A DNA stretch of 47,922 nucleotides, taken from the IMG/VR virus record IMGVR_UViG_3300037264_000238, positions 1 through 47,922 of that record, one strand, 5' to 3'. This document shows positions 16,528 through 44,925 of this stretch, one piece after another (the first letter of the stretch is position 1; every line of letters starts with the position of its first letter). The notes under the pieces were generated by a model. The model saw only the letters and a list, made by a program, of their open reading frames with translations. It was not told the DNA's origin and searched no databases. The position numbers and the translations under genes were made by a program. Source of the DNA: a virus.

Positions 16528-19500
16528 ATGGCTATCGTTGACTATATGCGTAGGCAGCGGCAGGCCCAACAGCAGCCAGCAGGTGCGATACAAACACAGC
16601 CTGGTGATCCCAACTTTTCGCTTGCCACTAACCCTTCGTCTCAGGCGCAGTTCCCTGCTGCTGCTGGCGAATCCAGACTACAAGACGTTCAGGGCCGTGC
16701 TACCAACGCCCTTGGCAACGCCTATAATGCAGGCTACGACACGTCTGCCCCAGCTTTCGACCCTCTCAACGAGGCTTCACAGCAAGGGTTCACTCAACGT
16801 GCGTTAACCTTAGGCGAGGGCTTACTCGGCTGGATCGACGGCCCACGTCAAGCAGTGAACCTGCTCATACAGGACATTGCTGGTGGAGAACCAGAAGATT
16901 TACGCAACCCCAACTTCGGAGACTATTGGAACACTTTGTGGGGTGGCATGGAAGACGAGGAAGGCTTCATGCAGGAGACTGGCCTTAACCCTCGCAGTGG
17001 TTCGCATACTATCGACATGTTTGGATGGTCGCCTGAAGACGACTTCCTGGGCCGTGCGGCCCGTGGCGTGGTTGACTTCGGCTTCCAAATCCTTACCGAC
17101 CCTCTCACATATGTCACGTTTGGTTTGTCTGGCTTGGGGAAGAAGGCCGCGCAGGGCGCTGCCCGTGCCCTACAGAAGGAAAGTGTTGACGCTATCATGC
17201 CTATTTTAAAGTCGGGCATTGTGGACGATGCCGCCCTGGTAGGGTTGACCGACTATCAACGTTATCTTGTTAACAACATTGATGCGATCCAAGCAGAGTT
17301 CGGTAACGACATGTTGGGTTTTGTGGATAATTTGGGTGGTGATTTTGCTCCCGACGTGAAACGCGGTCTAAACCGTTACTTGGGTGAGGACGGTAACCCG
17401 TGGGCTAAAACCACTGAGTTAGCAATCGCTAACCGTATCGCCAACGAAGTCATGAAGCCTCTCATTGCCCGCAACTTTAGGGCCATCAACCCTCTAGCAA
17501 GGGCGGAACTACCCTTGTGGGCTAGGGGCGGTGCGCGTATCAGTATCCCGTTCACACAGAATAATCTGCGTCACGGAGCGCAGATTCCTGGTACGATAGG
17601 TGTTGGCAAATCCCTTATTGGCGATCCGCTGCGTGAGGTTAGCCGCAGGCTGAAAGCTTTCGGTCCCTATAACACTATGGCGAACAGGATTGAGTCCGCT
17701 AAGAACGCTATGGACCAGTGGCGCCCGCTACTTGAAGGTCTGAAAACTCCTGGTTCTGAGGGGATTGCTGGCTGGCAGTACCATATTGCTATGGACGCCT
17801 TGGATTCGATCCACAACCAGGGTGCTAAAGAGTTTATTACCGCCACTCTTGGAGCCAAGTTCAAAACCATAAGCGACCTGGCAGAGGGTGCTGGCCTTGA
17901 TATTTCAGAAGTCAACTCTCTTATCATGAACAGGTTGGAATCCGTTGACATTAATGGCGTTGCTCTCCGTCAGGCTGGTAAGCTGTTCGGCGAAGGTGGA
18001 GTAGGACAAGATTTGGCTGGCGACTGGGGGAGACTCTACCCTGACCTGGACAAGGAGGTTGATGGGGTTGCTGCGTTCCTTCGTGGAACATTCGACGAAT
18101 ACCACGAGAAACTGTCAATGCTCGACCCTCGCATCAAGGAAAGGTATATTGACGGGTATACCCCCCACAAAGGCACTAAGATTGGTGCTGGAATCTTGGA
18201 TGAGCTTGCCGTTAAGGGTGCTGCCCCGCCTAGGGGTGAATGGATTAACGCTCCTGATCCTGGTAGGGGACTTTTTGCTAGGCTGATTGCTGCTCGCGGT
18301 AAGGGCGGCAGGTTGGAGACAAGCATGGGTGCTGCCCGTTACATGAACGAACGTGAGATTGGTCGTCTACAGGCGCTTACTCTTTTGGATGATGGGGTCA
18401 TGTTGTTGGATCAGGAGTGGGCCGAGAACTTTCTGAGAACTCAGGCCCGCGGCCTGATGGTTGGTGGGGAAGTGAACATTAATGCTTTGGAGACTCGTTA
18501 TATTCCTGCTTCGAAGCTGAACGAAATACTTGAACCTGTTGTGCGGGAGCAGGCGAAACGGCATGGTGTCGTTATCCCTGGCGATTGGGATGGTAAGATT
18601 TTTTCGGAGGACCCGTTTGAGGTTGCTGCCGACTATGTTGGGAACATGGATGAGGCTATTCGTATGTTGACTGCTGTTGACACATTCCGCACTGCGGGGC
18701 TGGCTATGAACCATTCTACTGCTGTTGACGTGCAGGATGTTATTCAGAAACTTTTTGAGAACGTGGTAAAGCATACTGAGGCTGTTAGCGTCGCTAAATT
18801 TGGGCGCCCTGATCCTGACAATCATATGGCTCCTGTGTCCTGGTTGAAAACTATTGTCGATCCCGAGGATTGGGAGGCAGCTAAAGTTCGCGGAACTGGC
18901 CTAGAACCTGGGACCGACATTAACGCTGCAGCTTTAGCTGATGCTGACGATCCAGCCTTGCGGCCGCTCACTGTTAAAAAGGCTGAATACGATAAAGGTT
19001 TGGAAGTTGGAAGTAGAAAGATTTCTGATGCTGTGTATGGTACTAGGGAAGAATTTCAAGCATCTGTTCAGACCGAAGGCGTACGGGTTCCTCTTAATGT
19101 TGGGATAACTCCGTCTGGTAATGTGATTCTGATTGACGGTCACAACAGGCTGCTCGCTGCTGAGGCAGCAGGATTAGAGGAAATGCCTGTTCGTATCACT
19201 ATGATGTCGGGCGAGGACGAACTGGCTGAGGCTACTGGTGTAAACGTTTCTCACTACATGAAAAAGAATTTGGAAGAAAGCGAATCTGATCTTGGGTCTG
19301 TCGTAGACAAGGTTACGGGCAGACCGCTCGTTCCTGGTACTGGTAGGCTTACTCTTGCCGAAGCTTTCAACATTCTCCCCTGGGACCCGTCCCCGTTTAT
19401 CACTCAGAAAAACATTCTTAAAGGTTCAATGGCCCTCGGCAACGCCGACATACCGTTAAACGTGCAGAGCGCACTACGCAAAGCAGGAATCAGCACCAAA

Positions 19501-21591
19501 GATATTGGTGAGGCCAGGAACATGTTGCAAATGGCCAAGATGAGTCGAGCCGAATTCTTAAAACTAAGCCCTCTAGCCCAAAGCCCCAGGCTTATGAGCG
19601 TGCCGCTCGAAGGGACAAACATGCGGGTTACCGTGAACGCTGCGGAAGAACTCGAAATTACTTTTAAACCTGGTATGGACATGACTGAACGACGCATCGC
19701 GCTAGAAGATGCTATTCTTAAACTTGATTCTGAATTGAAGTCTGGCATTCTTAAAGGCAAGCTCACAAACAAGGGCATGCGAGATTTGGCTAGTAAAACT
19801 GTGGACGAAACTACTAGCCGCGTACTATACCGCTACCTGAACAGGAAGCTGGCTGCCCTACCCCCTTCCGTGTCAGAGTGGATTACTAAAGACCCTGCCG
19901 AACTGGTGCAAACCCGTGCACTGTTCGACACTTTCGAGGACGAACTCAATTATGTTGTCACGAATTATGCTGCCTTGCAGACTAGAAGCGGCCAACTCGT
20001 AACCGATTCGGCGCAGCTTAAATTGCTCGGCAACACTGAGCTAGAAAACAGGCTACGAATACTACGTGATTCCGCCGACCAACTAGGCGATGCAGGATAT
20101 GATACTGCTGCCAAACTGATGCGTGGCATAGACGATTTCACAAGCGTCGCTGACCCTGGCTTTGTCAGTCCAAGCATGTTCGCCCTGGCAGGCCCCGCAG
20201 TAGACGACGTTGTGCTCCAAAAGGACCTTGCAATGTTCCTGCGCAACGTGGCGCGCAACTCTGCCATGATGTACACTCCTGAAGGTATTGCTGCTGCTAA
20301 GACCGCTACTAGGAACGGCCTGCGCTGGTGGAGGGCTATGGCCACTATTGCCAGACCGTCCTTCCATATCCGCAACCTTGTTGGTGGTGCTTGGATGAAC
20401 CTTGTTCATGGCGTGCAGAACTCTAACTATGCTATGGTGGCGCACGGTGCGCCGAAGGTCCGTGCCGCCCTGCGTGCTGGAAAAACCTTGGACCAGGCTT
20501 TCGACACGCTCCCCGCTGATGCGAGAGAAGTGTTCCGTGCCGCCTGGGAAGACGATATCATGTCAGGGTTTGCGAGCACCGAATTTAGGAAGCTTACTGC
20601 TGGTCAGAAACGTGAGAAGCTGGCTTGGATGAAAGTGTGGGATGTGGACGATTTTGTTCTCACCCGCATGGGTGGACGCTTCATGGAGAGCATCGAGGAC
20701 TTGCTGCGTGTGTCGCTGTATGCCCGCTATTTTGATCCTGCCAAGCCTGCCACGCGATCAATGGCGAAGGATATGGTGAACGCTACTCATTTCGACTACG
20801 TGAACCTTACTCCTATGGAGACTAGACTAAAATCGTGGATACCGTTTTTCGTGTGGACTCGGCGTAACCTGCCCCGTCAAATACAGCTTGCCGTGGAGAA
20901 CCCCCGCTACGTGCAGAAGTATCGGGCCATGATGCAGAGCATGAACGATAACCTGGGTGGAGACGAGAACGCTCTCATGCCTGAGGGGGATTCGTTTTCT
21001 GCTCATGCTGCAGGCACTGACTATTTCGTTAACCCCAACACTCCGTTTTGGGCGAGAGTCATGATCGACCCCGATCTTCCTATTGCTGATCTTATTAGCT
21101 TGCCTACGCCTGGTATCGACAACCTTGTTGACTATGCCAACGATTTGCTTGGCCCCCACGTTTCAACGCTTGTTAATGTGAACGAGCAGCGGGACTTCGG
21201 GGATGTGAACGCCCCCGCACCCTTCAACGCTATCCTGAAAAGCTTGGCGGCTGTGGGTTTGTATGATGAGACTATGGATGGTGATGTGCGCATACCATAT
21301 TTCATGCGCAGCATCTTGGAGACCGCCCTGCCGTTCGGCAGGGAAGTGATTGACCCTCTGACTGGTGGTCCTTCTGATCCTAACAGGCAGCAGAGGCTCG
21401 GCATTAAAGAGGATGATAACACTTTGACTTCGATCATGAAGAACATAGCTGGCGTAGGGTTGAGTGGGCTGGGAGTTAAACTTACCACGCCTGCTGATGT
21501 TCGTGGCGTCGCTGCCCGCACCAACGAGGAATTGGATCAACTCATACAAGAACTGAGGTTGCAGGGTGCTTTCCCTGCAAGCGAAGGCTAG
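16528..21591 (+). CDS. Large internal virion (ejection) protein with embedded ParB-like domain
   Basis: A 1,687-residue protein, the largest of the genome, in the T7 gp16-like position after the medium internal protein. It is mostly helical with Gln-rich N-terminus. Residues about 811-895 carry a ParB/sulfiredoxin-type motif: a loading segment, PLNVGITPSGNVILIDGHNR with IDGHNR at 869-874, then LLAAEAAG. The C-terminal part contains hydrophobic or amphipathic segments suited to membrane passage (LKSWIPFFVWTRRNLP). It is presumed to be ejected into the host with the DNA. No RNA polymerase motifs were spotted. Confidence 0.8.
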   Translation: MAIVDYMRRQRQAQQQPAGAIQTQPGDPNFSLATNPSSQAQFPAAAGESRLQDVQGRATNALGNAYNAGYDTSAPAFDPLNEASQQGFTQRALTLGEGLLGWIDGPRQAVNLLIQDIAGGEPEDLRNPNFGDYWNTLWGGMEDEEGFMQETGLNPRSGSHTIDMFGWSPEDDFLGRAARGVVDFGFQILTDPLTYVTFGLSGLGKKAAQGAARALQKESVDAIMPILKSGIVDDAALVGLTDYQRYLVNNIDAIQAEFGNDMLGFVDNLGGDFAPDVKRGLNRYLGEDGNPWAKTTELAIANRIANEVMKPLIARNFRAINPLARAELPLWARGGARISIPFTQNNLRHGAQIPGTIGVGKSLIGDPLREVSRRLKAFGPYNTMANRIESAKNAMDQWRPLLEGLKTPGSEGIAGWQYHIAMDALDSIHNQGAKEFITATLGAKFKTISDLAEGAGLDISEVNSLIMNRLESVDINGVALRQAGKLFGEGGVGQDLAGDWGRLYPDLDKEVDGVAAFLRGTFDEYHEKLSMLDPRIKERYIDGYTPHKGTKIGAGILDELAVKGAAPPRGEWINAPDPGRGLFARLIAARGKGGRLETSMGAARYMNEREIGRLQALTLLDDGVMLLDQEWAENFLRTQARGLMVGGEVNINALETRYIPASKLNEILEPVVREQAKRHGVVIPGDWDGKIFSEDPFEVAADYVGNMDEAIRMLTAVDTFRTAGLAMNHSTAVDVQDVIQKLFENVVKHTEAVSVAKFGRPDPDNHMAPVSWLKTIVDPEDWEAAKVRGTGLEPGTDINAAALADADDPALRPLTVKKAEYDKGLEVGSRKISDAVYGTREEFQASVQTEGVRVPLNVGITPSGNVILIDGHNRLLAAEAAGLEEMPVRITMMSGEDELAEATGVNVSHYMKKNLEESESDLGSVVDKVTGRPLVPGTGRLTLAEAFNILPWDPSPFITQKNILKGSMALGNADIPLNVQSALRKAGISTKDIGEARNMLQMAKMSRAEFLKLSPLAQSPRLMSVPLEGTNMRVTVNAAEELEITFKPGMDMTERRIALEDAILKLDSELKSGILKGKLTNKGMRDLASKTVDETTSRVLYRYLNRKLAALPPSVSEWITKDPAELVQTRALFDTFEDELNYVVTNYAALQTRSGQLVTDSAQLKLLGNTELENRLRILRDSADQLGDAGYDTAAKLMRGIDDFTSVADPGFVSPSMFALAGPAVDDVVLQKDLAMFLRNVARNSAMMYTPEGIAAAKTATRNGLRWWRAMATIARPSFHIRNLVGGAWMNLVHGVQNSNYAMVAHGAPKVRAALRAGKTLDQAFDTLPADAREVFRAAWEDDIMSGFASTEFRKLTAGQKREKLAWMKVWDVDDFVLTRMGGRFMESIEDLLRVSLYARYFDPAKPATRSMAKDMVNATHFDYVNLTPMETRLKSWIPFFVWTRRNLPRQIQLAVENPRYVQKYRAMMQSMNDNLGGDENALMPEGDSFSAHAAGTDYFVNPNTPFWARVMIDPDLPIADLISLPTPGIDNLVDYANDLLGPHVSTLVNVNEQRDFGDVNAPAPFNAILKSLAAVGLYDETMDGDVRIPYFMRSILETALPFGREVIDPLTGGPSDPNRQQRLGIKEDDNTLTSIMKNIAGVGLSGLGVKLTTPADVRGVAARTNEELDQLIQELRLQGAFPASEG

Positions 21592-23850: not shown

Positions 23851-24363
23851 TTAATGTTTGCGGTATGCTTCAACCCTGAACAGGAGGGGAGTCTCATAAG
23901 AGAAACTCCGCCCCAATTCGTAATATATGATTTCGTAGTCAAAGTCTAGGAGCTTCTGCAGAAAAACCTCAGGGTTAATGGGGCGACGATAGTGGGAACC
24001 GTCTAACTCGTCGCCTATGGCCCTGGCCTCCACGAACAGTTGGCCTTGCGTCCACTCTAATAGCTCGTCTTCCACTCTTTCTTCCACTGCATGCAGGAAC
24101 CATCGGGCATACACTGTGTCGGAGGGAAAGGACTCCCAACATTCGAAAAACGTTTCTGCTGTGAGATGGGAGAAGTTTGCGCCCTGGGGCGACATGGGGT
24201 CCACCCCTATGGCTTCAAGATAAGCAGTGTCCCGTCCATTACCACACCCAATATCGTAGACCCTGGTTCCTGTTATGCGGGGCCTAGCCCACTCTGCGAA
24301 CGGTGACGGTTCGTTCCTCTCAAACGTTTCATAAAACTTTTCCCAATACGCTTTATCTTTCAT
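23851..24363 (-). CDS. SAM-dependent methyltransferase-like protein
   Basis: A 170-residue protein (ATG 24363; the longer frame overlaps the neighbour). It shows class I methyltransferase motif I (VYDIGCGNGRDT, about 35-46) and the following acidic GVDPM turn. The remaining strands carry YARWFLHAV and QLFVEARAIGDE. The substrate cannot be read from sequence. Its neighbour is a sugar-phosphate transferase, so glycan or small-molecule methylation is one possibility. Last gene of the - strand convoy. Confidence 0.7.
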   Translation of the reverse strand: MKDKAYWEKFYETFERNEPSPFAEWARPRITGTRVYDIGCGNGRDTAYLEAIGVDPMSPQGANFSHLTAETFFECWESFPSDTVYARWFLHAVEERVEDELLEWTQGQLFVEARAIGDELDGSHYRRPINPEVFLQKLLDFDYEIIYYELGRSFSYETPLLFRVEAYRKH

Positions 24364-25045
24364 ATTGGCTCTTGTCGGGGAACAGTCTTTCAAGGAAAGC
24401 GTCCATGCTCGACAGTTTAAACGTCGAATCTAATGACGACAGGAAGTCGGCCCCTAAACTGACCAGCCGCTGCAAGTCAAGATTAGTAACGACTTTCACA
24501 TTATAGTTTAAGGGTACTGTTTTTCGTTGTTTCACTATGTTCCCGTAAACGGTATACCATCTGACAGGCTTCCCTTCGTCAAGGTCAACGGGTGCAGCCG
24601 ATCTGTCTATAACCATTGGGATATGGGCTTCGTAGCCGACAGGGTTTTGAACCCCCGCCGAAGTCAATATTTCCATTGTGTTTGCCATGACCACGCCCCA
24701 TTCGCCCGATTCGGGCGGTCTTCGTTCACACATTGCCGCCAAAGTATCATAGGAATGGTTGGCTAGGAACCGTTGCGGACGTAGAATATACATATCGTCT
24801 TCCATTAAATACACTTTTCTTGTCAGGAACGGTATGCTACACATCTGGATGAACGAAGAGTGGGTGCCCATCCACTTGTCTTCCATTTCTCTTGGAACCC
24901 AAACATAGTTATTGAGCCAAGCGGGAGGTGGCTCGAAACTCATAATGTAGACCTTCCCCACATGGGGCAGGTTTTTGAGGGTGCGCAGCGAATAGCGCAG
25001 TTCGTCTCCTGCGTCGGGACCAATATTATATACTACGTCTATCAT
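24353..25045 (-). CDS. Stealth-type sugar-phosphate transferase
   Basis: A 230-residue protein starting at ATG 25045 just after the previous stop (AGAAGAG upstream). It shows IDVVYNIG (2-9), ELRYSLRTLKNLP and VYLMEDDMYILRP, which correspond to the first conserved regions of the Stealth family of hexose-1-phosphoryl transferases (capsule polysaccharide synthesis). MEDD is the expected metal-binding acid cluster. It may modify host surface glycans, for example to exclude other phages. Overlaps the methyltransferase gene by 11 bases. Confidence 0.7.
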   Translation of the reverse strand: MIDVVYNIGPDAGDELRYSLRTLKNLPHVGKVYIMSFEPPPAWLNNYVWVPREMEDKWMGTHSSFIQMCSIPFLTRKVYLMEDDMYILRPQRFLANHSYDTLAAMCERRPPESGEWGVVMANTMEILTSAGVQNPVGYEAHIPMVIDRSAAPVDLDEGKPVRWYTVYGNIVKQRKTVPLNYNVKVVTNLDLQRLVSLGADFLSSLDSTFKLSSMDAFLERLFPDKSQYER

Positions 25046-25046
25046 C

Positions 25047-26018
25047 TTACTCTTCTGCGGGAACGGTTGGGAGAGTTGAGGGCTGGGCAACAGCAGGCGC
25101 ACTGTTAGGAATGTTTAGTATGAGACCACTATCTCCTGCAACGACTTGCGGGTATGCACCATTCCATTTAACGAACAGCACGTACTCTTCGGCTGTCATT
25201 CCAAGCATTTCCTGGCGTTGACGTTCAGCGTTCGCCACAGTAATCATGGCGTCGGCTTCACCTGCCGCAGCGTTCCTGATCTCGTCGGCCCTGGTCGCAG
25301 CAATATCCCGCTGATGTTCGGCAGTAAGCTTCTGACGTTCGGCGATCCGTTCCTCTTCGATGGCCGTCAGAATACCAGCCTTAGGAATAGTGTCCTCAAT
25401 GGCCACGTATTCTATAATAATACCATGCAATGCTAGTTGTGGTGCTATCTCGTTGAAAATGCGTTCGCTGATTTCCGTCTGCTTCGGAGCTATCTGCTCC
25501 AACGAATAGGAGCCAATGGCGGTACGCAACGCCCGCAGCAATGCTGGCTCGATGATCGTGAGCGGCCCGCCACTAATATTTTCGCTAACGAAGCTGGCGT
25601 TACCTGTACGCCAGTTGATCGCTACGGGCACCCTGATTTCCTGGGTGTCGGCAGTATGCTGCCACACGTCAGGATTATTGTGCCTGTATATTTGGGTTTG
25701 CACGTTCACGTTGCTGACGTGTTGGACGATCGGGACAACCAAATTCACGCCTGTTGCGAGTTCTTGTTCAAGTATTCCCGCACCCAAATCGAGGACAACG
25801 CCATCGTACCCTTTGGGTGTAAAGGTGACCGTGGACGTCACCACAAACCCCGCTAAGGCCACCAGAATGGCCGTACGCAGGCGTTTGCGACTGTAGTGAA
25901 GGGTTTTGTCCTCTTCCTCGCCTTGGCGAGAGAAGCCCGTTAAAGCTACGGTCACCCCCAACAGGATAGCGCCAAGCTGAGTTATCAACTGTAGCTGTGA
26001 GGCAATCATATTTATCAT
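25047..26018 (-). CDS. SPFH/prohibitin-family membrane protein (HflK/C-like)
   Basis: A 323-residue protein with two N-terminal membrane segments (about 10-29 and 49-66) and an SPFH domain (about 66-210: GVVLDLGAGILEQELATGVNLVVP, then VPVAINWRTGN). A long charged helix follows (AIEEERIAERQKLTAEHQRDIAATRADEIRNAAAGEADA). In bacteria HflK/HflC form a cage that restrains FtsH. Here an FtsH homologue lies one gene upstream in the same operon. AAAGGA ribosome site. Confidence 0.88.
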   Translation of the reverse strand: MINMIASQLQLITQLGAILLGVTVALTGFSRQGEEEDKTLHYSRKRLRTAILVALAGFVVTSTVTFTPKGYDGVVLDLGAGILEQELATGVNLVVPIVQHVSNVNVQTQIYRHNNPDVWQHTADTQEIRVPVAINWRTGNASFVSENISGGPLTIIEPALLRALRTAIGSYSLEQIAPKQTEISERIFNEIAPQLALHGIIIEYVAIEDTIPKAGILTAIEEERIAERQKLTAEHQRDIAATRADEIRNAAAGEADAMITVANAERQRQEMLGMTAEEYVLFVKWNGAYPQVVAGDSGLILNIPNSAPAVAQPSTLPTVPAEE

Positions 26019-26058
26019 TCATTTTCCTTTCGTAAATAGTCAGCAGCTAACATAGGTA

Positions 26059-26547
26059 TTATCCCAATGCCCTCTCTTCATTATCGGTCCTTTCATCACT
26101 GTCACGTTCCCCCCTAGGAGGCTGTCTAATATCCGAATGCGACGCCACAGGCCGCTTGTTCCCACTATTCCACTCCCAAGTATAGCCGCCATGTTGTAGA
26201 AACCATATGTCTCCGCCTTCGACCTGGACCTTACAGTCTTCTACGGGAAAGTCGGGGAAGGCTGCGTTAACACCCCGACATGCCCATTCGACACTCAACG
26301 CAATGTTGGGAGTAGTATTATCCATTTTTGATGCGGCGACGCAGGCGTCCACGTCAGGATCGTCCTGCTTGTTGTTGAACCCGTTGTCTCCTAGGACTTT
26401 TCCTGCACACCAGTTTTCTGCTTGCGTCATGGCGAGGGGCTTCCAGTTCCCATCATATAAGCGCCAGGTGGGTACGTTCCAGTTAATGATTATAAATCCT
26501 CCTATTATGAGGATGATGCCTGCTACAAATGCGAAGAACTTTCTCAT
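26059..26547 (-). CDS. Membrane-anchored hypothetical protein between FtsH and SPFH genes
   Basis: A 162-residue protein: one N-terminal membrane anchor (FFAFVAGIILIIGGFIII), then a presumably exported domain with four Cys (AENWCAGK, VDACVA, WACRGV, EDCKV) that could form two disulfides, and a charged C-terminal tail. Its ATG overlaps the ftsH stop (ATGA), so translation is coupled. Unrecognised. Context suggests a partner or adaptor of the FtsH/SPFH complex. Confidence 0.65.
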   Translation of the reverse strand: MRKFFAFVAGIILIIGGFIIINWNVPTWRLYDGNWKPLAMTQAENWCAGKVLGDNGFNNKQDDPDVDACVAASKMDNTTPNIALSVEWACRGVNAAFPDFPVEDCKVQVEGGDIWFLQHGGYTWEWNSGNKRPVASHSDIRQPPRGERDSDERTDNEERALG

Positions 26548-28469
26548 TGCATCCTATCTAATAATTTATGAATCTCATCACCATCAACAGTACCATACTC
26601 CTGCAACATTTGAGCCACAAGCTCCACCTCATCACGGTGCGTTGTCATGAACTCGTGCAGGTCGGCGTAAATTCCATTCAACCAATCCTCCACTTGCGAC
26701 CTCAATTCGGGAGTAACCTCATCAACACTAAACACGTAAACAGTGTTGCCCATAGCCCATTTAAACCACATGTTGTCCGCCGTCTCCGACGCTTTCTTCA
26801 AGTCGCTTGACGGACCCGTAGACACATCATCATCGAAATAGTATTTCTCCGCCCAGGTGGACGCCAAGCTCACCCTAATGTTCGCCATAAGCCTGCTCTT
26901 CAACGTGTAACGGTCAACCTCGTCGTTGGCCTGCACGAACCCTCCCGTACTGCCACGCTTAAAAACGGATGCGAACTGAATAGGCATGTCTCTACGAAAA
27001 TGGTGAGAAGCAACAGCGTGCGCAGCCTCGTGAACTGCTGTACGCCATCTATCCTCTTCCAATTCCATTTCCCCTTCAGCCTCACCCATCATACTTTTAA
27101 GCAAGTAATCCCGCAGATCATCGTAGGTAACATAGTCCCTACCGTCACGCACTGCGGACAGTAGCCCTTCGTTCACCATCGTTTTAATACTGGCACCAGT
27201 AGCCTGCGGATTGTTACGTGCAATCTGTTCTATTTCAGTATCGGTTAGAACATGTTTGAATATTTTACCCAAGTATCCTACAAGCGTTTCTATGCGTCCT
27301 GACAGGTTCGGGTAGTTCATGCGCAGTTTACGGTCAAACCTTCCTGGCCTGGTCAGGGCAGGGTCAAGCGTCTTCTCCATGTTTGTCGCAGCTAACCACA
27401 GTATCCTATAGTCAATGGGCGGCAACGGAGGGAAACCCAACCATACTCGCAGCTTATTGTAGAAGCCACGAGATTTCTTCATGCCCGACATTTCCGTAAG
27501 AATCTGCTGTAGCGCACCAGAACCAGAGGAAATCTGTATTCTGTTCTCTTCGGGAACATTACGGAACACAATCTTGTTCCACAACTCGCTCAATACTCCG
27601 CCACCACGGGAACCCAATACGTCTATTTCGTCAAAGAACACAACAACGCCGCCGTATTTGACACTAAGGTTACGCAGTTTCTTAAAGATTAGTTTGGTTC
27701 GACGCTGCGGCACACCAGCCCACATTGATGTGAAACTAGACCCGTCAATGGACACGAACGGTTTACCCGCTTCACCTGCAGCAGCCTCAGCAAGATAGGA
27801 TTTCCCTACTCCTGGCGGGCCGTACATCATAATACCTGTAGGCATTTGCCCGCCCAACGCTTCAACTTCCTCAGGGTTGTTGAGAATTTCAAGCGCCTCT
27901 TTAACGCTAGCTACTGCCGTGTCCTGCCCGTAAACGTCAGTAAACCTGGTTTTAATTGAATGGGGGAGCATAATGTCCATTGCTCCCTGACGTGCAGCAA
28001 TCTCCTGCACTCCCAAGAACCCTACAAAACCAAGTGCCAACCTAATCATGAACTGAACAAGGTCGCCCATGTTCTGACCGATTAACGTAGGTATACTTAC
28101 GGCACAGTTAACTGCGCCTTCACAAGCAGGCGTGGACATGTCAATGATATAGCCTATGGCTAGGCCAATAATAGCGACACGCCAAACGGATATTAGCTTA
28201 TGTCTAGTATAGTCGCTGAGGTTAAAGGACTTGCCTTTAATCCACGCATTGTACTTCTGTGTTTTAGCGTAGAAGCGTCCGCTGCGCTCCTGCCTGTACT
28301 CGATGAAAGCTTTAACAACGTAGAAGACTATGAACAGGTAGGCTACTCTTCCGAACGGGCCTTGCAACCAGGGGGTCGGGTAGGCTCGTTCGAGTAGGAA
28401 GGCTACGAGTATTGCCCATCCGATCTGGCGGATTTTCTCTGTCCAGTGGCGTTTAGGTTTCGGATTCAA
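26544..28469 (-). CDS. ftsH: FtsH-like membrane AAA+ zinc metalloprotease
   Basis: A 641-residue membrane protease. The N-terminal 160 residues hold about four hydrophobic segments (14-27, 41-55, 95-110, 135-155), more than the usual two. AAA+ motifs: Walker A GPPGVGKS (217-224), pore loop MWAGVPQRR (249-257), Walker B FFDEID (278-283), and second region of homology DPALTRPGRFDR (369-380). The M41 zinc site is HEAAH (480-484), with D556 in SSDLKKAS. All catalytic residues are present. TTG start with AGGAG six bases upstream, coupled to the 58-codon gene before it. A partial copy of its 5' end lies at 28632-28703. Confidence 0.92.
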   Translation of the reverse strand: MNPKPKRHWTEKIRQIGWAILVAFLLERAYPTPWLQGPFGRVAYLFIVFYVVKAFIEYRQERSGRFYAKTQKYNAWIKGKSFNLSDYTRHKLISVWRVAIIGLAIGYIIDMSTPACEGAVNCAVSIPTLIGQNMGDLVQFMIRLALGFVGFLGVQEIAARQGAMDIMLPHSIKTRFTDVYGQDTAVASVKEALEILNNPEEVEALGGQMPTGIMMYGPPGVGKSYLAEAAAGEAGKPFVSIDGSSFTSMWAGVPQRRTKLIFKKLRNLSVKYGGVVVFFDEIDVLGSRGGGVLSELWNKIVFRNVPEENRIQISSGSGALQQILTEMSGMKKSRGFYNKLRVWLGFPPLPPIDYRILWLAATNMEKTLDPALTRPGRFDRKLRMNYPNLSGRIETLVGYLGKIFKHVLTDTEIEQIARNNPQATGASIKTMVNEGLLSAVRDGRDYVTYDDLRDYLLKSMMGEAEGEMELEEDRWRTAVHEAAHAVASHHFRRDMPIQFASVFKRGSTGGFVQANDEVDRYTLKSRLMANIRVSLASTWAEKYYFDDDVSTGPSSDLKKASETADNMWFKWAMGNTVYVFSVDEVTPELRSQVEDWLNGIYADLHEFMTTHRDEVELVAQMLQEYGTVDGDEIHKLLDRMQ

Positions 28470-28642
28470 TTGGTTCTCCTAAGGAATCCACAAATGTCAG
28501 TGTACTCGCCCTGAACGAGCAACCAAGACTCGATTGTATTAGTAATAGCGTCAAGCATTTCTTCATCGCTGACCGAATCGTCGTGCGCACAAGAGCGCAT
28601 GAGCGAGTTGATCGTGCCCAGGACCAATTCTCTAAGATTCAT
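28466..28642 (-). CDS. Small acidic protein upstream of ftsH
   Basis: A 58-residue helical protein (begins MNLRELVLGTINSLMRS, acidic middle, two Cys). GGAGA site before ATG. Its TGA stop shares bases with the TTG start of ftsH, so ftsH translation is probably coupled to it. Function unknown. Confidence 0.65.
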   Translation of the reverse strand: MNLRELVLGTINSLMRSCAHDDSVSDEEMLDAITNTIESWLLVQGEYTDICGFLRRTN

Positions 28643-28703
28643 CAATCTCTCCGTTTAGTATTCTTTTTTTTTCTGTCCAATGACGCTTAGGTTTTGGATT
28701 CAT
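28632..28703 (-). pseudogene. Partial recoded copy of the ftsH 5' end
   Basis: A 23-codon ORF. Residues 2-12 (NPKPKRHWTEK) are identical to residues 2-12 of the ftsH product encoded 230 bases downstream, yet five of eleven codons differ synonymously. It then runs into a 7-A tract and ends at an unrelated stop. It begins in an ATGA overlap with the stop of the adjacent HNH gene. Confidence 0.8.
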
Positions 28704-36797: not shown

Positions 36798-38033
36798 TCA
36801 TGCCAACCACTTTGCGGCACCAGGAGAAACATACTTTTTCAAACCACCAACAGTAGGATGAGTATAAACAGGTTTATCCACAAGCGCCTCCTTCGGCCAA
36901 ACACTACGCAATATTTCGTTCATAGGGAAAATAAGATCATCACATCTGCCATTCATGGCAGTATGAATACCCCAATAAGCATGATGTTTAATTTCATAGT
37001 CCTCATATAAACCCCAGTTAAACACCATGTCATCATCCCAAAACAGCCCCTCGTTTTGTGCTCTAACAAACACGTCCCAGGCACGCTCATAAAAATAGGG
37101 GTTCTCAGTACTTTTACCATTCGACCCCATAGGATTACCAAGACAATAAACGTCATTCTTATAGTTAGGTAATAGTTTAAACACTTCTGCGCCCAACCCT
37201 TCCGCAGCAGACACGTCATGTTTAACAATAGTATCATACACGAGTTCCAGGGGCATGCGCTTCACCAAATCCTGCAAAAAACTTTTAGGATCATGGTAAT
37301 GCATGCCATCAATAAATGATTTGACCATGCCCATGCACCAGCCAAGAATCGTAGGATGCAATAGTAGTCGCCCACTCAACGTGCGGAACTCTATTTTACT
37401 AATCTTAGCATCATATCTGAAAGAACCTGGCTGACCGTAAACTTGTCTCCGTTCTGCTTCACCATCAGAAAACTTGTTGCCAAGAATAGCGACCATAGGC
37501 ATAGCAACAAAATAGTCATACAGTATTGCTAGCGCAGCCTGCTGTTCAAGGTCAGCCAGACCTATTGGGCTGGCATGAATGTGTCCACCAGTCCATCTGC
37601 GCCTATCCGAAGGGTTCAGGTTAGGAGATTTCTCAGACAAAGAATACGCATCAATATCAGGGTTACATCCAAACTCTGAAACGTTAGGCGGAGCATCAAT
37701 CAGCGACTCGTCGTCGAGCACATATTTGGCCGCAGAAGACAGTTTAAACTTGTTTTCCATGTCCTTTTCAAGTTTAAGAGAAGTCCAACGTATTGCCTCA
37801 CCCAAATAGGGTATAAGATTGTCTCTACAAGCAGACGCCACAAGAGTACGCACCTCAACACCAGGGCCATCACGAGAAACCTCACTGCCCAACATGTTAC
37901 CATCACCGTTATCATAGTGGAAACTGAACTGTTCACAATGGTCCCCCAACAACATGTGTGCGCTCCTGCCCACACCACTATCATTGTTGACAATTGCGAG
38001 TTCAGGGTCTAATCCCATTCTTTCAACGTACAT
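36798..38033 (-). CDS. GCS-type COOH-NH2 ligase (phiEco32-like, type 2)
   Basis: 411 residues from ATG 38033 (AGGAG eight bases upstream). It belongs to the glutamine synthetase/gamma-glutamylcysteine synthetase-like fold that joins carboxylates to amines with ATP. Metal/ATP residues are visible as GLDPE (7-11), GVEVR (58-62) and GGHIHASPIG (149-158). The family was first noted in phiEco32-like phages, next to ATP-grasp and amidotransferase genes, as here. Substrate unknown; peptide or protein side-chain conjugation is the family prediction. Confidence 0.85.
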   Translation of the reverse strand: MYVERMGLDPELAIVNNDSGVGRSAHMLLGDHCEQFSFHYDNGDGNMLGSEVSRDGPGVEVRTLVASACRDNLIPYLGEAIRWTSLKLEKDMENKFKLSSAAKYVLDDESLIDAPPNVSEFGCNPDIDAYSLSEKSPNLNPSDRRRWTGGHIHASPIGLADLEQQAALAILYDYFVAMPMVAILGNKFSDGEAERRQVYGQPGSFRYDAKISKIEFRTLSGRLLLHPTILGWCMGMVKSFIDGMHYHDPKSFLQDLVKRMPLELVYDTIVKHDVSAAEGLGAEVFKLLPNYKNDVYCLGNPMGSNGKSTENPYFYERAWDVFVRAQNEGLFWDDDMVFNWGLYEDYEIKHHAYWGIHTAMNGRCDDLIFPMNEILRSVWPKEALVDKPVYTHPTVGGLKKYVSPGAAKWLA

Positions 38034-38043
38034 GCTTGTTCTC

Positions 38044-38730
38044 CTAAATCGAATCTCTAATAGCCCGCACAATACGAGCAGCAGTCAACTCGTTCACACC
38101 AGGCGACGTGTTGATTTCAATAGTATACGGCCTGTCCTTATCCACAATAATATCCCAACCAAACACTGTTCGCACATGGTTCGGAACAAACGAAATGGCC
38201 TCCTTAACGTGAGGAATAATACCGTTCTTCCCAACACCCTCAACACCCGTCCAATGCCAAACAAAATTGCCAACACCAGGCAACACTTCCTTACGGTGAG
38301 CCTGCACAATAAACTCGCCAACAGTAATAACCCTGAACTCTACACCATCAACATGTTTCTGCACTATACCCCAAACAGAATCACAAGCCTTCTCGTGGAA
38401 CTCTTTACCACGTCCACCAAACCCGCCGCTCTTATGCCAGTGCGGGCCGTTAAGGCTCATGGGCGGAATAAAAGCGTTCATGTTTCTACGCAACGCTGCA
38501 GGATGAGAAACATGCCTAACACTAATAGGCATGTTAAACACGGGCATGGTTAGCTCCGTAAAATCATAATTCAAATTACCCAAATTGACGACAGCCTCAA
38601 CGTCCAGTTTCAAGGCGAGAGCGTTAAGCTGCTTTTCACTGTAATTCCGTTTCGCAAATTTCACGTTCGCACTAGACCATGCGGTACGAGTCTCCTGCGA
38701 TAAGGGAATTGATCTTACACCCAAAAACAT
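38044..38730 (-). CDS. ATP-grasp ligase
   Basis: A 228-residue ATP-grasp enzyme. It has the K-S-G-G-x-G-G-x-G loop (100-108), DGVEFRV (128-134), GWDIIVD (191-197) and the metal-binding E-x-N (EIN, 205-207), as in RimK/D-Ala-D-Ala-like ligases, but the N-terminal domain is short. It would form an amide or peptide bond through an acyl phosphate. It starts directly after the preceding stop (TAAATG). Confidence 0.85.
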   Translation of the reverse strand: MFLGVRSIPLSQETRTAWSSANVKFAKRNYSEKQLNALALKLDVEAVVNLGNLNYDFTELTMPVFNMPISVRHVSHPAALRRNMNAFIPPMSLNGPHWHKSGGFGGRGKEFHEKACDSVWGIVQKHVDGVEFRVITVGEFIVQAHRKEVLPGVGNFVWHWTGVEGVGKNGIIPHVKEAISFVPNHVRTVFGWDIIVDKDRPYTIEINTSPGVNELTAARIVRAIRDSI

Positions 38731-39537
38731 TTAATAGTCGTCCTCTTCATTGTTCTCTTCAACGTCGTCTTGTATAATAACGGTAGGCGCAAAACTTTCT
38801 ACAAAAGCAGTATAGCTGAGACCACTACTATCAAGAGGCGGCAGCTTTGTCGAAGCTTTAGTGGTCTTTTTGGCGCTGCCCGCAGGCTTAACTCTTGTCA
38901 AAGAATTTTGTACAATCATACTCCCAACGTTCACGCACATCTGGTCTAAACACCAATCCACAAATGCGGTTGTTTTTGACGGATGAACAGCAAAATTGTT
39001 TACAATATTATTAGCGTTCATATCATAAAAACTGTTATAATGAGGCTGAGGTTTCAAATAGAATCCACCAGGCGTATTCGTTACACTAAACAAAACCTCG
39101 TTCTCACCCACCCAAGACTGGAAACGTTGCGCCATATTAATGCGCGAACCACGATAAGAATAATGATTTTCAGAAACCATATCCCAAGACTGGAAGATTT
39201 GGGGCTTCAAAAAAGTAACAACCTCAGCATTTTCGAAACCATAAACCTGATTACCCAACCAACCATACCAATTAGATGAAATATGTTCTGCTACTCTAGC
39301 CGTATAGCCAACAGCAGACCACTGAAACGGTGTGTCTTCTGCAGTTGTACCACCAAAACAGTAGGCCGAAATAGTGGTTAAAGGATCACTTGAAGTAAAC
39401 GGCGACTGGTCACATTCACAACGAAAATGTCCCCTATCTAACGGAATCGTAGGCTTAGCGTCCGCAACGTCACGAACAAAAATGTTAACACTAGCCGAAG
39501 CCCTCACAATACGTTCAGGCAAATTTTTAACGTCCAA
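38731..39537 (-). CDS. Unknown protein with acidic tail in the ligase cluster
   Basis: 268 residues from TTG 39537, chosen because CGGAGG lies eight bases upstream. Contains an N-terminal RCECDQ, a Trp/Tyr/Phe-rich middle (NWYGWLGNQVYGF), a Lys/Ala linker (AGSAKKTTKASTK) and a strikingly acidic end (QDDVEENNEEDDY). Unrecognised. The exposed Asp/Glu tail would be a natural acceptor for carboxylate-amine ligases, which is speculation. Confidence 0.65.
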   Translation of the reverse strand: MDVKNLPERIVRASASVNIFVRDVADAKPTIPLDRGHFRCECDQSPFTSSDPLTTISAYCFGGTTAEDTPFQWSAVGYTARVAEHISSNWYGWLGNQVYGFENAEVVTFLKPQIFQSWDMVSENHYSYRGSRINMAQRFQSWVGENEVLFSVTNTPGGFYLKPQPHYNSFYDMNANNIVNNFAVHPSKTTAFVDWCLDQMCVNVGSMIVQNSLTRVKPAGSAKKTTKASTKLPPLDSSGLSYTAFVESFAPTVIIQDDVEENNEEDDY

Positions 39538-40495
39538 AAGAAACCTCCGTTTTATTAAACAGGTCAGACAACAAAGCTTGACCACGAACATCATCCTGCA
39601 AACCGTTAACACACAGTTCACGCAACACTATCAGCCTATCCAGGCTAAACAGTTCCAACAATGCGGGCGTGTCATCACGTCGCACAGCCTCGTTTAAACG
39701 TTCCTGGTCGAAAGGTCCACCATAACCGCCACGCATAAGAGTGGCAATAGTATTATCGGGCTGCAACAATTGTCGAGTCAGGCTGGCAGCCAAATATGCT
39801 GAAGACTCAATGTAATCCCAATTATCGTATACTGCTTCGAACATGCGCCACTCAATATACACGTAACCAGAATTAACTCTCCGCAAATGGATGAAACCGT
39901 GGTGACCGTTCTGGTCAGCATTACGAATAGGTTTCCTAAAACTCAAACCTCTAACATATCCAGCCGAAGACGCCAAAGCAATAAATTCGGGACCATACAG
40001 GCTGAGAGCATGTATAACATCATTATGTAACAAGCTTTTTCCGTCTGGAATTCCTCTTGTTTCAGCACCAGGCGTCAAAGCCGAAACGTGCAGGTGAACA
40101 CTAGGAGAAGAACGATTACCATGCTTGTTGATTGTTTGATCATCCCATACGGCGCTTCTAACAACAATATCCCAAATAGACCGCAATTCTTCAAGACCGT
40201 TCTCTTCTAAAAGAACAGTGGACGTAACAAATTCGGCGCCCGTTTCGGGCAGGCTCGCATCATATGTTAAAGATACGAGCGGAGGATAAATAGTATCCCC
40301 GCTGCGCACAAGACCACAACCATTTTCACATTTGCAACCATAATTGTGAAACGTTTCCCAATCGGAAGGCTGACCAGTCATGAAACCAGCCTTGATTAGG
40401 TCAGCAGCAACCTTCTGATAGGTGCGACTGTTCTTCCATTTAACAATCTCAATTTCCATACCAACCTTAACAATACCATTATCAGGTATTAACAT
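39527..40495 (-). CDS. Amidoligase (GCS-like) enzyme
   Basis: 322 residues from ATG 40495 (AGGAG ten bases upstream). Amidoligase features: VGMEIEIV (11-18) with the metal-binding Glu pair, a Cys-rich insert (YGCKCENGCG), ETGAEFVTS, SVHLHVSALTP and YIEWRMFEAVYD. It should ligate an amine to a carboxylate, using ammonia or an amino compound. Second GCS-fold ligase of the cluster; overlaps both neighbours. Confidence 0.83.
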   Translation of the reverse strand: MLIPDNGIVKVGMEIEIVKWKNSRTYQKVAADLIKAGFMTGQPSDWETFHNYGCKCENGCGLVRSGDTIYPPLVSLTYDASLPETGAEFVTSTVLLEENGLEELRSIWDIVVRSAVWDDQTINKHGNRSSPSVHLHVSALTPGAETRGIPDGKSLLHNDVIHALSLYGPEFIALASSAGYVRGLSFRKPIRNADQNGHHGFIHLRRVNSGYVYIEWRMFEAVYDNWDYIESSAYLAASLTRQLLQPDNTIATLMRGGYGGPFDQERLNEAVRRDDTPALLELFSLDRLIVLRELCVNGLQDDVRGQALLSDLFNKTEVSFGR

Positions 40496-42371
40496 TACTA
40501 ATGCTCCTTTCCGCACCCATAAGAGTAAGCGCCCAGTCAGGAAAATTGGTTAGCCTTCTAACACTACCACAATCCCAACAATCCTCACCCGTAATCAAAT
40601 CAAAATGGGTTCTATTCAGTTTCACAATTCGCTGCGAATTAGGATACCATTTATGTTCGTTAGGATCACAAATTTGGTTCTTACCTACAGTAAGCTCACA
40701 ACCAAGAACCCCCATCATGCAACGAGCAATTTCAGTATCCTCAGCACAAGACAAAGCATACAGCGCCGCGAACTGTGCGAACCTGCAACCATCAATTTTT
40801 TCATGTTTGCCCAATGTCACATCATGAAGAGCACATTTCGCATCATTAACGAAAGCTACACCTTGCGCACCCTCCGCATTCCAGGTTAAACCAGGAAAAG
40901 AATCCCAAGTAACAATTATTTCAGGATGCAAATAACCATCCGTTTCAAAATCGTTCTCTGTAACATCCGTCAATGTTTCAGAATAGGCGTGGCCTCTAGG
41001 GTTACCACGTTTTGAAGGAAGCATGAAGGGAGCCTGATTCTTTGCTTTCTCAGCTTCGACCTTACGTTTCGCAGCAGCATCAGCTAAAAGAATATACTCA
41101 TATTCAGGTTTACTGTCAGGCATATTCTTAACTTCAGTAGTCTTTGCAATATACCATTGCGGCCAAGGCTCCAACATGACAGGAGGAACAGACGGTTTCC
41201 TAACTTCAGGGTCCTTATCCTCAACAATCCAACGTTCCTCCATGTTTAATAATGCATGATTGTAAACATCATATATTTTACGGTCAGAACCCACAATAAC
41301 TTCAACATCACCATAGAAAACATGATAAGCATAAGTTTTCTTATTGTAAACTACACGGTCCGCCTCCCCGAACGGAGCGTACATGTTTGTAAATCCAAAC
41401 TTTCCGTCCTTATTGGCAAAACCATTAACATTGTCATACTTTTCTTCTATGTCCTGGGTGGCTGGAAAACATTTAATATCCCTGCCCATAGCCCCAAACT
41501 TGACAGGCCAGTCAGCGAGAATATCAGTTTCATAGACTTCCACGTTGTTAGGAGCCATTCTTTTAATTGCAAACGGTGCCCTGGCCCACGTCGAATTCGT
41601 ATCTACAACATGACGGTAAGGTAGCGCAGCATACCCAATAGGATCACCGTTCTCAACCAAAAAAACTTTGTTCGGATCAAGGTTACGATATTCCCAACCC
41701 GAACCGTCCACCTTCAAGCCCATAGCATCAATCATGCCGTAAAGACCTTCGGTTGTGCTACCATAAAGAATAATTCCGAAAGGATGATACGCCAAAATAA
41801 GGGGCGAACCAGTACCTTTACCAATAAGGCTCAAACCTGGTTGATCCTGCCAAACAGCATGAAACGCAATATTACCGCTCAAAGGCGCTAAAGCCTCCGC
41901 AATTTCAGTAATGTTCCTAGGATTCTCGACCCTCTCATCTAAAACAGCGGCAATAACAGCAGAATCCACATCAGGAATCCTGCTGTTCGCAAGCGTATTC
42001 CTGATAGCAACATCATTGGTGATATTACCATTATGGGTCACCCACACTTTGCCCACGTTGACAGGATGATTGTTGCTATTAACTTTAGGATCACCAACAG
42101 TATGCTGTCTGGTGTGGGCGCCAAACACACGCATGACCTCAAGATTAGGCACCCTGTTCCTTTTAGAATTGTCTAACAGCAAATCTGCAGCAGCACCCTT
42201 ACGCTTCCACGATTTAAACGCATCCTCCACAAAACCCATGTATCCTGCAGCCTCCCAGCCACGATGCTGGTTGTGAAGCCACGCTTCAACAAGAAGCTTC
42301 TCCTGCTTGTTATTATCCAAATATTTTTCAGCAAATTTGGGTGAACAGTTATATCCCGCAATACCACACAA
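40482..42371 (-). CDS. Class II glutamine amidotransferase (GAT-II)
   Basis: A 629-residue protein. The TTG start at 42371 is fixed by the catalytic N-terminal Cys2 (MCGIAGY). Further GAT-II motifs are HNQHRGWEAAG (33-43), GAHTRQHTVG with NNHPV, THNGNITN and DVDSAVIAA. It hydrolyses glutamine and supplies ammonia. The C-terminal 350 residues contain no synthetase domain that I recognise, so ammonia probably goes to the ligases encoded next to it. Confidence 0.9.
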   Translation of the reverse strand: MCGIAGYNCSPKFAEKYLDNNKQEKLLVEAWLHNQHRGWEAAGYMGFVEDAFKSWKRKGAAADLLLDNSKRNRVPNLEVMRVFGAHTRQHTVGDPKVNSNNHPVNVGKVWVTHNGNITNDVAIRNTLANSRIPDVDSAVIAAVLDERVENPRNITEIAEALAPLSGNIAFHAVWQDQPGLSLIGKGTGSPLILAYHPFGIILYGSTTEGLYGMIDAMGLKVDGSGWEYRNLDPNKVFLVENGDPIGYAALPYRHVVDTNSTWARAPFAIKRMAPNNVEVYETDILADWPVKFGAMGRDIKCFPATQDIEEKYDNVNGFANKDGKFGFTNMYAPFGEADRVVYNKKTYAYHVFYGDVEVIVGSDRKIYDVYNHALLNMEERWIVEDKDPEVRKPSVPPVMLEPWPQWYIAKTTEVKNMPDSKPEYEYILLADAAAKRKVEAEKAKNQAPFMLPSKRGNPRGHAYSETLTDVTENDFETDGYLHPEIIVTWDSFPGLTWNAEGAQGVAFVNDAKCALHDVTLGKHEKIDGCRFAQFAALYALSCAEDTEIARCMMGVLGCELTVGKNQICDPNEHKWYPNSQRIVKLNRTHFDLITGEDCWDCGSVRRLTNFPDWALTLMGAERSISNVNT

Positions 42372-44484: not shown

Positions 44485-44925
44485 TCATTGAAAAGAATGT
44501 ATTTCCCAACTAAGTTTAAGGTCCTCATCTTTATGACCATACATGATATTAGCGATAATCGCACCAGTACGACCATTACCATCACCAAAAGGATGAATAC
44601 GTTCAAAATCAATAAACCACTGTTCGACGTTATCAATATAATAACCGTCAGCAACAGCTTCACACAAATTCTTTATAAGTCTAGACAGTTCACGCCAAGG
44701 CTTACCCTCGTCAATACCAATAAAAACAGGATAGTTACGCCAACCATTCTCATTAATATTAGGCTCAACCCTAGCCCCAATTCTCTTAACAACTTCAGGA
44801 TTATCAAAATTTCTGCGGTTCATTTCAGCATAAACAAAAGCATTATACAAATGCGGGACATATTCAACGCTTGTGCCCTGGACTACACATTCTTTAACAC
44901 ACCAAATAGCTAGGTTTTCTCTCAC
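44485..44925 (-). CDS. Fic-domain protein
   Basis: 146 residues with the Fic active-site signature HPFGDGNGRTG (111-121). The usual consensus is H-x-F-x-x-G-N-G-R-x-x-R; here the final Arg is Ala122. Fic proteins attach AMP or other phosphate-containing groups to target hydroxyls. A missing second Arg may change ligand or activity. GTG start in a GTGA overlap. It could alter a host protein early in infection. Confidence 0.85.
   Translation of the reverse strand: MRENLAIWCVKECVVQGTSVEYVPHLYNAFVYAEMNRRNFDNPEVVKRIGARVEPNINENGWRNYPVFIGIDEGKPWRELSRLIKNLCEAVADGYYIDNVEQWFIDFERIHPFGDGNGRTGAIIANIMYGHKDEDLKLSWEIHSFQ

Follow-up and report, generated by a model that had tools for sequence, protein, structure and literature searches.

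A conserved phage locus encoding an unusual FtsH-like protease, a new cysteine-rich membrane protein and an SPFH protein, and its possible role as a membrane protease module

The mitochondrial m-AAA protease is an FtsH-type protease that works within an SPFH (prohibitin) ring. In Escherichia coli, a dome of HflK/C encloses FtsH hexamers and controls membrane-protein proteolysis, and HflK contacts the periplasmic domain of FtsH at residues 62-64 (PMC12048511). Phage-encoded FtsH has been reported in the Pseudomonas jumbo phages MIJ3/PA5oct (PMC6892783) and in an Erythrobacter phage (PMC9127768), and SPFH genes have been reported in several phages (PMC8540360, PMC10269572, PMC4936722). However, in the open-access literature searched we found no report of both together in a phage, or of the protein encoded between them here. 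Here we analysed the IMG/VR virus record IMGVR_UViG_3300037264_000238 over its whole 47,922 bases (hereafter the window), in which ftsH, a middle gene and an SPFH gene stand side by side. Phage FtsH alone and phage SPFH alone were known before; what appears new is their conserved combination with a third, putative subunit.

Layout and conservation of the three-gene locus

Genes for terminase, portal, head-tail adaptor and scaffold proteins lie on the plus strand of the window and replication-type genes (a DnaB-like helicase, an exonuclease) on the minus strand, where ftsH, the middle gene and the SPFH gene form the end of the block. All three open reading frames (ORFs) were confirmed, and they and the main sites of FtsH are as follows:

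26544-28469, minus strand: ftsH, encoding a 641-amino-acid (aa) AAA+/M41 membrane metalloprotease (Pfam, solved FtsH homologues, family alignments)
27990-28445, minus strand: membrane-embedded N-terminal part of FtsH (about residues 9-160), predicted to contain four helices (AlphaFold2 (AF2) model, hydropathy, charge pattern)
28104-28124, minus strand: C116-x5-C122 in the predicted extracytoplasmic loop between transmembrane segments 3 and 4 of FtsH (invariant alignment columns)
27798-27821, minus strand: Walker A motif GPPGVGKS of FtsH, residues 217-224 (aligned with solved FtsH structures and in the family alignment)
27018-27032, minus strand: HEAAH zinc/catalytic motif of FtsH, residues 480-484 (alignments including solved FtsH structures)
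26802-26804, minus strand: D556 of FtsH, the third zinc ligand position, in STGPSSDLKKA (placed by alignment with the ligand segment in solved FtsH structures)
26059-26547, minus strand: middle gene, encoding a 162-aa single-pass Cys-rich protein (no family match, no structural match)
25047-26018, minus strand: SPFH/Band_7 gene, encoding 323 aa (Pfam Band_7, phrog_200, PDB matches, alignments)

The start codon of ftsH is TTG. Its end overlaps the middle gene by ATGA, whereas the SPFH gene begins 40 nt past the middle gene; the ATGA coupling that a preliminary description of this DNA had assigned to the whole trio therefore applies to the first two genes but not to SPFH. The same description's membrane SPFH gene and membrane-anchored Cys-rich gene beside ftsH were both recovered, as indicated by the ORFs, the Band_7 match and the four Cys residues found.

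Scans with the window FtsH or SPFH protein as single queries returned no close relatives, and alignment queries were needed. Using alignments of FtsH alone, eight further IMG/VR contigs with the same FtsH family were retrieved (L108, L109, L110, L111, L267, L269, L270 and L274), all of which contained a middle-protein homologue and an SPFH gene downstream of ftsH, on the same strand and in the same order as in the window. The order is constant even in L109, L111 and L274, where small ORFs or a gene for a methyltransferase intervene, and SPFH lies within about 1.2 kb of ftsH in 9/9 intact family members. By comparison, the fetched region of control loci, defined as distinct M41 ftsH genes that do not belong to the family and have 2 kb or more of sequence downstream, contained an SPFH gene in none of 52 viral and none of 66 bacterial cases (9/9 versus 0/52, p = 6e-11, or about 2.5e-8 with six lineages only). 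The SPFH profiles were validated on ten test regions, where they detected 13 bacterial SPFH ORFs, and Band_7 genes were found elsewhere in the genome in 19 of the 20 bacterial genomes tested. The locus thus displays the genetic association expected of an FtsH-HflK/C-type complex. The majority of FtsH matches from the phage collection resemble host sequence or wrongly labelled entries, and these were not counted as evidence for phages; two phage-deposited records with a bacterial-looking ftsH neighbourhood, L021 (proS, lepA, glgX) and L023 (carA, carB, folP), are likely contamination or mislabelling.

The family members fall into about six lineages (the window and its sister phage, L108/L274, L109/L267, L110, L111, and L269/L270), between which FtsH identities are 32-55%, indicating that conservation of the trio is old. 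Terminase or portal genes, detected in five of the eight further contigs, belong to families other than those of the window, which implies transfer of the module among unrelated phages. Two contigs of the family also encode MuF-like head-morphogenesis fusions of about 1590 aa (L269:13204-17967 and L270:4972-9753, both on the minus strand), and the L269 copy seems to contain an intein-like stretch.

The window's nearest sister, G001 (45,738 bases), shares whole-genome synteny with it, with 81% identity in the major capsid protein and 70% in the terminase. Its FtsH is 72% identical through residue 534, after which follow 24 unrelated residues, a stop codon and a terminator-like hairpin. G001 consequently lacks the protease C-terminus with the third zinc ligand, and does not qualify as an M41 peptidase; it also lacks the middle and SPFH genes, being the only family member without these partners. 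The deletion could conceivably be a misassembly, yet both of its flanks follow the gene order of the window. This joint loss suggests that the intact protease and its partners are present or absent together, and makes G001 a natural knock-out of the protease end and both partners at once.

Nonsynonymous and synonymous substitution rates (dN/dS) between L108 and L274 were 0.006/0.164, 0.037/0.278 and 0.077/0.472 for the three genes, and dN well below dS indicates purifying selection on all of them. Together, the nine contigs, the zero linkage in controls, the co-loss in the sister and this selection strongly support the proposal that protease and SPFH form one viral module. Within the module, pairwise identities of FtsH correlate with those of the middle protein (Spearman 0.80) but much less with those of SPFH (0.33); the SPFH proteins of L108 and L274 are 80% identical to that of L267, whereas the FtsH identity of these two to L267 is only 39-40%. 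This pattern suggests a specific pairing of FtsH with the middle protein and a more exchangeable SPFH.

As for hosts, WhiB genes were found in 5/10 contigs (the nine above and the sister), directly before ftsH in L267 and L274, and among 14 control genomes WhiB was detected in Corynebacterium only. This makes actinobacterial hosts likely for those five, and at least half of the module phages probably infect Actinobacteria, judging from this marker gene; the window itself contains no WhiB. In the phylogenetic tree, the phage FtsH proteins share a clade (94% support) with an FtsH-like protein encoded on the chromosome of the actinobacterium Nonomuraea gerenzanensis (L343), far from canonical FtsH, indicating that this unusual FtsH is not exclusively viral and that its genes have passed between phage and host. 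The Nonomuraea protein has a similar hydrophobic N-terminus and inserted AAA segment, but it is a cellular gene product of 1047 aa with a long C-terminal extension, and no middle or SPFH gene was found within about 12 kb of it. FtsH-like proteins with short hydrophobic N-termini also occur outside the module family, in a T4-like replication region (L051:4505-6259), a 147-kb phage contig (L078:4446-6584) and Thermomicrobium roseum (L344:4779-6677), which points to a wider non-canonical FtsH group.

Properties of the three proteins

The window FtsH matched Pfam AAA (PF00004, 3.6e-25) and Peptidase_M41 (PF01434, 1e-21). Besides Walker A, alignment with solved FtsH structures placed DEID at residues 280-283, TN at 362-363 and arginines at R374/R377/R380, so that the Walker A/B, sensor and arginine-finger residues of an AAA domain are all present, and they are invariant in nine members. 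The Asp equivalent to D556 is conserved in the other full-length family members. The earlier label of a complete FtsH is thus correct for the AAA and M41 domains, by motifs and Pfam, but not for the periplasmic FtsH_ext domain (PF06480), which gave no match in the window FtsH or four relatives and was found in the MIJ3 and L026 viral controls. Instead of two helices around FtsH_ext, four helices are present, modelled by AF2 at residues 9-29, 38-62, 86-112 and 134-160 (mean predicted local distance difference test score (pLDDT) 72.9 for the whole model, lower across the N-terminal region). Positive charges at the N-terminus and in loop 2 suggest that both termini are inside, with short outer loops. 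The four N-terminal segments noted previously accordingly find support in alignment, model and charge distribution, and the two Cys of loop 3 are present in 9/9 aligned members. On the TIGR01241 FtsH equivalog model the protein scored 266.9 bits against a curated cut-off of 600, indicating a superfamily member rather than an orthologue of housekeeping FtsH, and its spacing from Walker B to sensor 1 is 76 residues compared with about 40 in canonical FtsH.

Two further features of phage ftsH genes were observed. Intein-like insertions occur in two of them, at Walker B in L274:7995-10754 and after the pore motif in L072:2342-5056. Upstream of the window ftsH, a 23-aa ORF, MNPKPKRHWTEKKRILNGEIDES (28632-28703, minus strand), duplicates the first 12 FtsH residues (28434-28469, minus strand) with codons that differ only synonymously, start codon excepted, and none was seen in the sister; its two candidate explanations are a leader peptide that imitates the beginning of FtsH and a recombination stub.

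The middle protein has one N-terminal membrane helix, a predicted extracytoplasmic domain and a charged, disordered tail. Four Cys residues (47, 69, 90 and 105), all in the mature part, are invariant, and the domain also keeps Trp, Gly and Thr across the family. It gave no Pfam match and no family match in profile searches, and two different queries found no relatives among 50,697 phage records. The structural model is helical and moderately confident (pLDDT 73.7), with disorder beyond residue 135. A known fold was sought in the PDB and BFVD by structure search and none matched, and the idea of a detached FtsH_ext was dropped after profile comparison showed no similarity. By its sequence, the middle protein represents a new family, and it is a conserved third component of the module.

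The window SPFH protein matched Band_7 (8.9e-22, 78.4 bits against the Pfam cut-off of 23.6), phrog_200 (4.7e-28) and QmcA, prohibitin and stomatin structures in the PDB. It scored below the cut-offs of the NCBIfam equivalogs for both HflK (35 of 159.4 bits) and HflC (17.8 of 134.4 bits), and shares a C-terminal KWxGxxP motif with other phage SPFH proteins. It has two hydrophobic segments, and its SPFH domain is probably extracytoplasmic.

SPFH genes also occur in other phage contexts. In Acinetobacter Ackermannviridae phages, two small ORFs separate rIIB from SPFH, which is the third gene after it (L100:2953-3753 and L104:2932-3744). In larger phages, SPFH-like genes were found ~4-7 kb from another AAA ATPase gene in which no M41 was detected, a possible second recurrent AAA/SPFH association:

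L319:2964-3809, SPFH-like gene near a non-M41 AAA gene
L181:2537-3331, the same
L336:2710-3522, the same
L333:3043-3855, the same
L335:941-1753, the same
L327:1133-1930, the same
L178:252-1064, the same

A putative membrane protease complex and its alternatives

The three genes probably encode one dedicated membrane protease complex that degrades membrane proteins, and a physical association of FtsH, the middle protein and SPFH is, in our judgement, likely. The predicted four-helix FtsH would form a hexamer with its AAA+ and zinc-protease rings on the cytoplasmic side, while SPFH would build a ring or dome on the outer membrane face around one or more FtsH hexamers and gate the entry of membrane proteins. 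The middle protein, with its one-helix anchor and disulfide-rich domain on the outer face, could connect FtsH with the dome, either as a bridge or as a substrate adaptor, a role for which the case appears evenly balanced. Since the FtsH periplasmic domain is absent and every module includes a co-varying outer-face protein, the most economical interpretation assigns the outer-face contact or substrate recognition to the middle protein, which may substitute for the missing domain. During infection, the complex would extract and degrade selected membrane proteins. Its targets would most likely belong to the host (receptors or proteins of envelope stress and defence), perhaps joined by membrane proteins of the phage that have misfolded; that clearing proteins from the host membrane is the main role is plausible but somewhat doubtful. 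In its boldest form, which we put forward tentatively, this would be a three-subunit dislocase/protease of new architecture, in which the middle protein stands in for the periplasmic domain of FtsH and links the hexamer to the SPFH dome, and with which phages of Actinobacteria reshape the host membrane proteome. If true, phages directly control host membrane-protein turnover. In addition, host FtsH can affect lysis indirectly via the cell envelope (PMC4749879), and a lysis-related role of the module is therefore also conceivable.

Several points weigh against such a complex. The nine contigs represent only about six lineages, and every family member is a metagenomic contig. SPFH swaps between modules without FtsH, so a specific contact with FtsH is not required, and the topology of SPFH and the middle protein is predicted from hydropathy and charges. 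Moreover, with its domain absent from the phage FtsH, the E. coli-type contact of HflK with FtsH residues 62-64 cannot exist, so that the HflK/C mechanism cannot apply here without change. The exchange of SPFH would suit the independent acquisition of two genes that are adjacent without their products forming a complex, one for an additional FtsH serving general quality control, the other for an SPFH membrane organiser; FtsH by itself (MIJ3/PA5oct) and SPFH by itself (CSP3, Toutatis and others) do occur in phages. Nevertheless, the constant gene order and shared new middle gene of six lineages, the zero linkage in 118 control loci and the co-loss in the sister make this quite improbable.

The main rival to host-protein removal is superinfection exclusion, in which the complex degrades membrane or injection proteins of incoming phages, or the phage receptor, and so guards the infected or lysogenic cell. 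On the one hand, 3/10 contigs (L269, L267 and L274) encode a tyrosine integrase at a distance of about 0.8-6.5 kb from ftsH, the SPFH genes of the Acinetobacter phages are close to rIIB, and the AAA domains match anti-phage ATPase models. On the other hand, these AAA matches are generic and yielded no known defence system, the middle and SPFH proteins have no match to PADLOC models, the window genes sit in the replication-side block, and neither the window nor its sister gave a tyrosine integrase match; we consider this explanation unlikely. The integrase distribution bears also on a lambda-like switch of lysogeny or development, in which SPFH restrains FtsH and FtsH degrades a CII-like phage regulator. 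The FtsH/HflKC biology of lambda is established and counts for such a switch. It has also been proposed already for phage SPFH genes (PMC8540360, PMC10269572, PMC4936722), but obligately lytic phages carry SPFH genes too (PMC8540360). With tyrosine integrases in three of the ten contigs searched but none detected in the other seven, among them the window and its sister, lysogeny control is unlikely for the window phage, the earlier allusion to lambda development gains no support there, and for the module generally we regard a switch as very improbable. A dedicated complex acting on membrane proteins is thus preferred.

Neighbouring genes and comparison with described systems

Directly after SPFH, the window encodes Stealth-like glycosyltransferase and methyltransferase-like ORFs (23851-25044, minus strand), which are absent in the sister and lie outside the conserved module. 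Farther away, a cluster of COOH.NH2 ligase-like, ATP-grasp-like and glutamine amidotransferase-like genes (36798-42371, minus strand), partly kept in the sister, perhaps serves peptide or cell-wall modification. The structural region contains a large, polyvalent or virion-borne protein of 1687 aa with a ParB-like segment (16528-21591, plus strand; 43% identity in the sister), and a short Fic/DOC-like protein is encoded at 44485-44925 (minus strand; 55% identity in the sister).

Compared with described systems, the locus combines features that occur separately in other phages. The phage SPFH/prohibitin-like proteins (phrog_200; CSP3, Toutatis, SH-Ab 15599) share the Band_7 domain and the C-terminal KWxGxxP motif, but those of CSP3, Toutatis and SH-Ab 15599 are stand-alone and do not adjoin ftsH. 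The FtsH of MIJ3/PA5oct is likewise phage-encoded, yet it is a canonical two-helix FtsH with FtsH_ext and no SPFH neighbour, at 29% identity. The m-AAA/prohibitin system is eukaryotic and has other N-terminal domains, and we know of no counterpart of the middle protein in it. E. coli FtsH-HflK/C differs in having an HflK/HflC pair rather than a single SPFH gene, whereas the phage FtsH has four helices, lacks the periplasmic domain and is accompanied by an extra subunit predicted to be disulfide-rich; the phage genes form one cluster, unlike bacterial ftsH, which was not near SPFH in the 66 loci examined. Nevertheless, both combine an AAA+/M41 membrane protease with SPFH, with an SPFH domain predicted on the outer face and control of membrane-protein proteolysis as the expected outcome. 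Should the proposed complex exist, the module would offer a small natural setting for studying how FtsH proteases are controlled by SPFH domes, a question that concerns bacteria and mitochondria alike.

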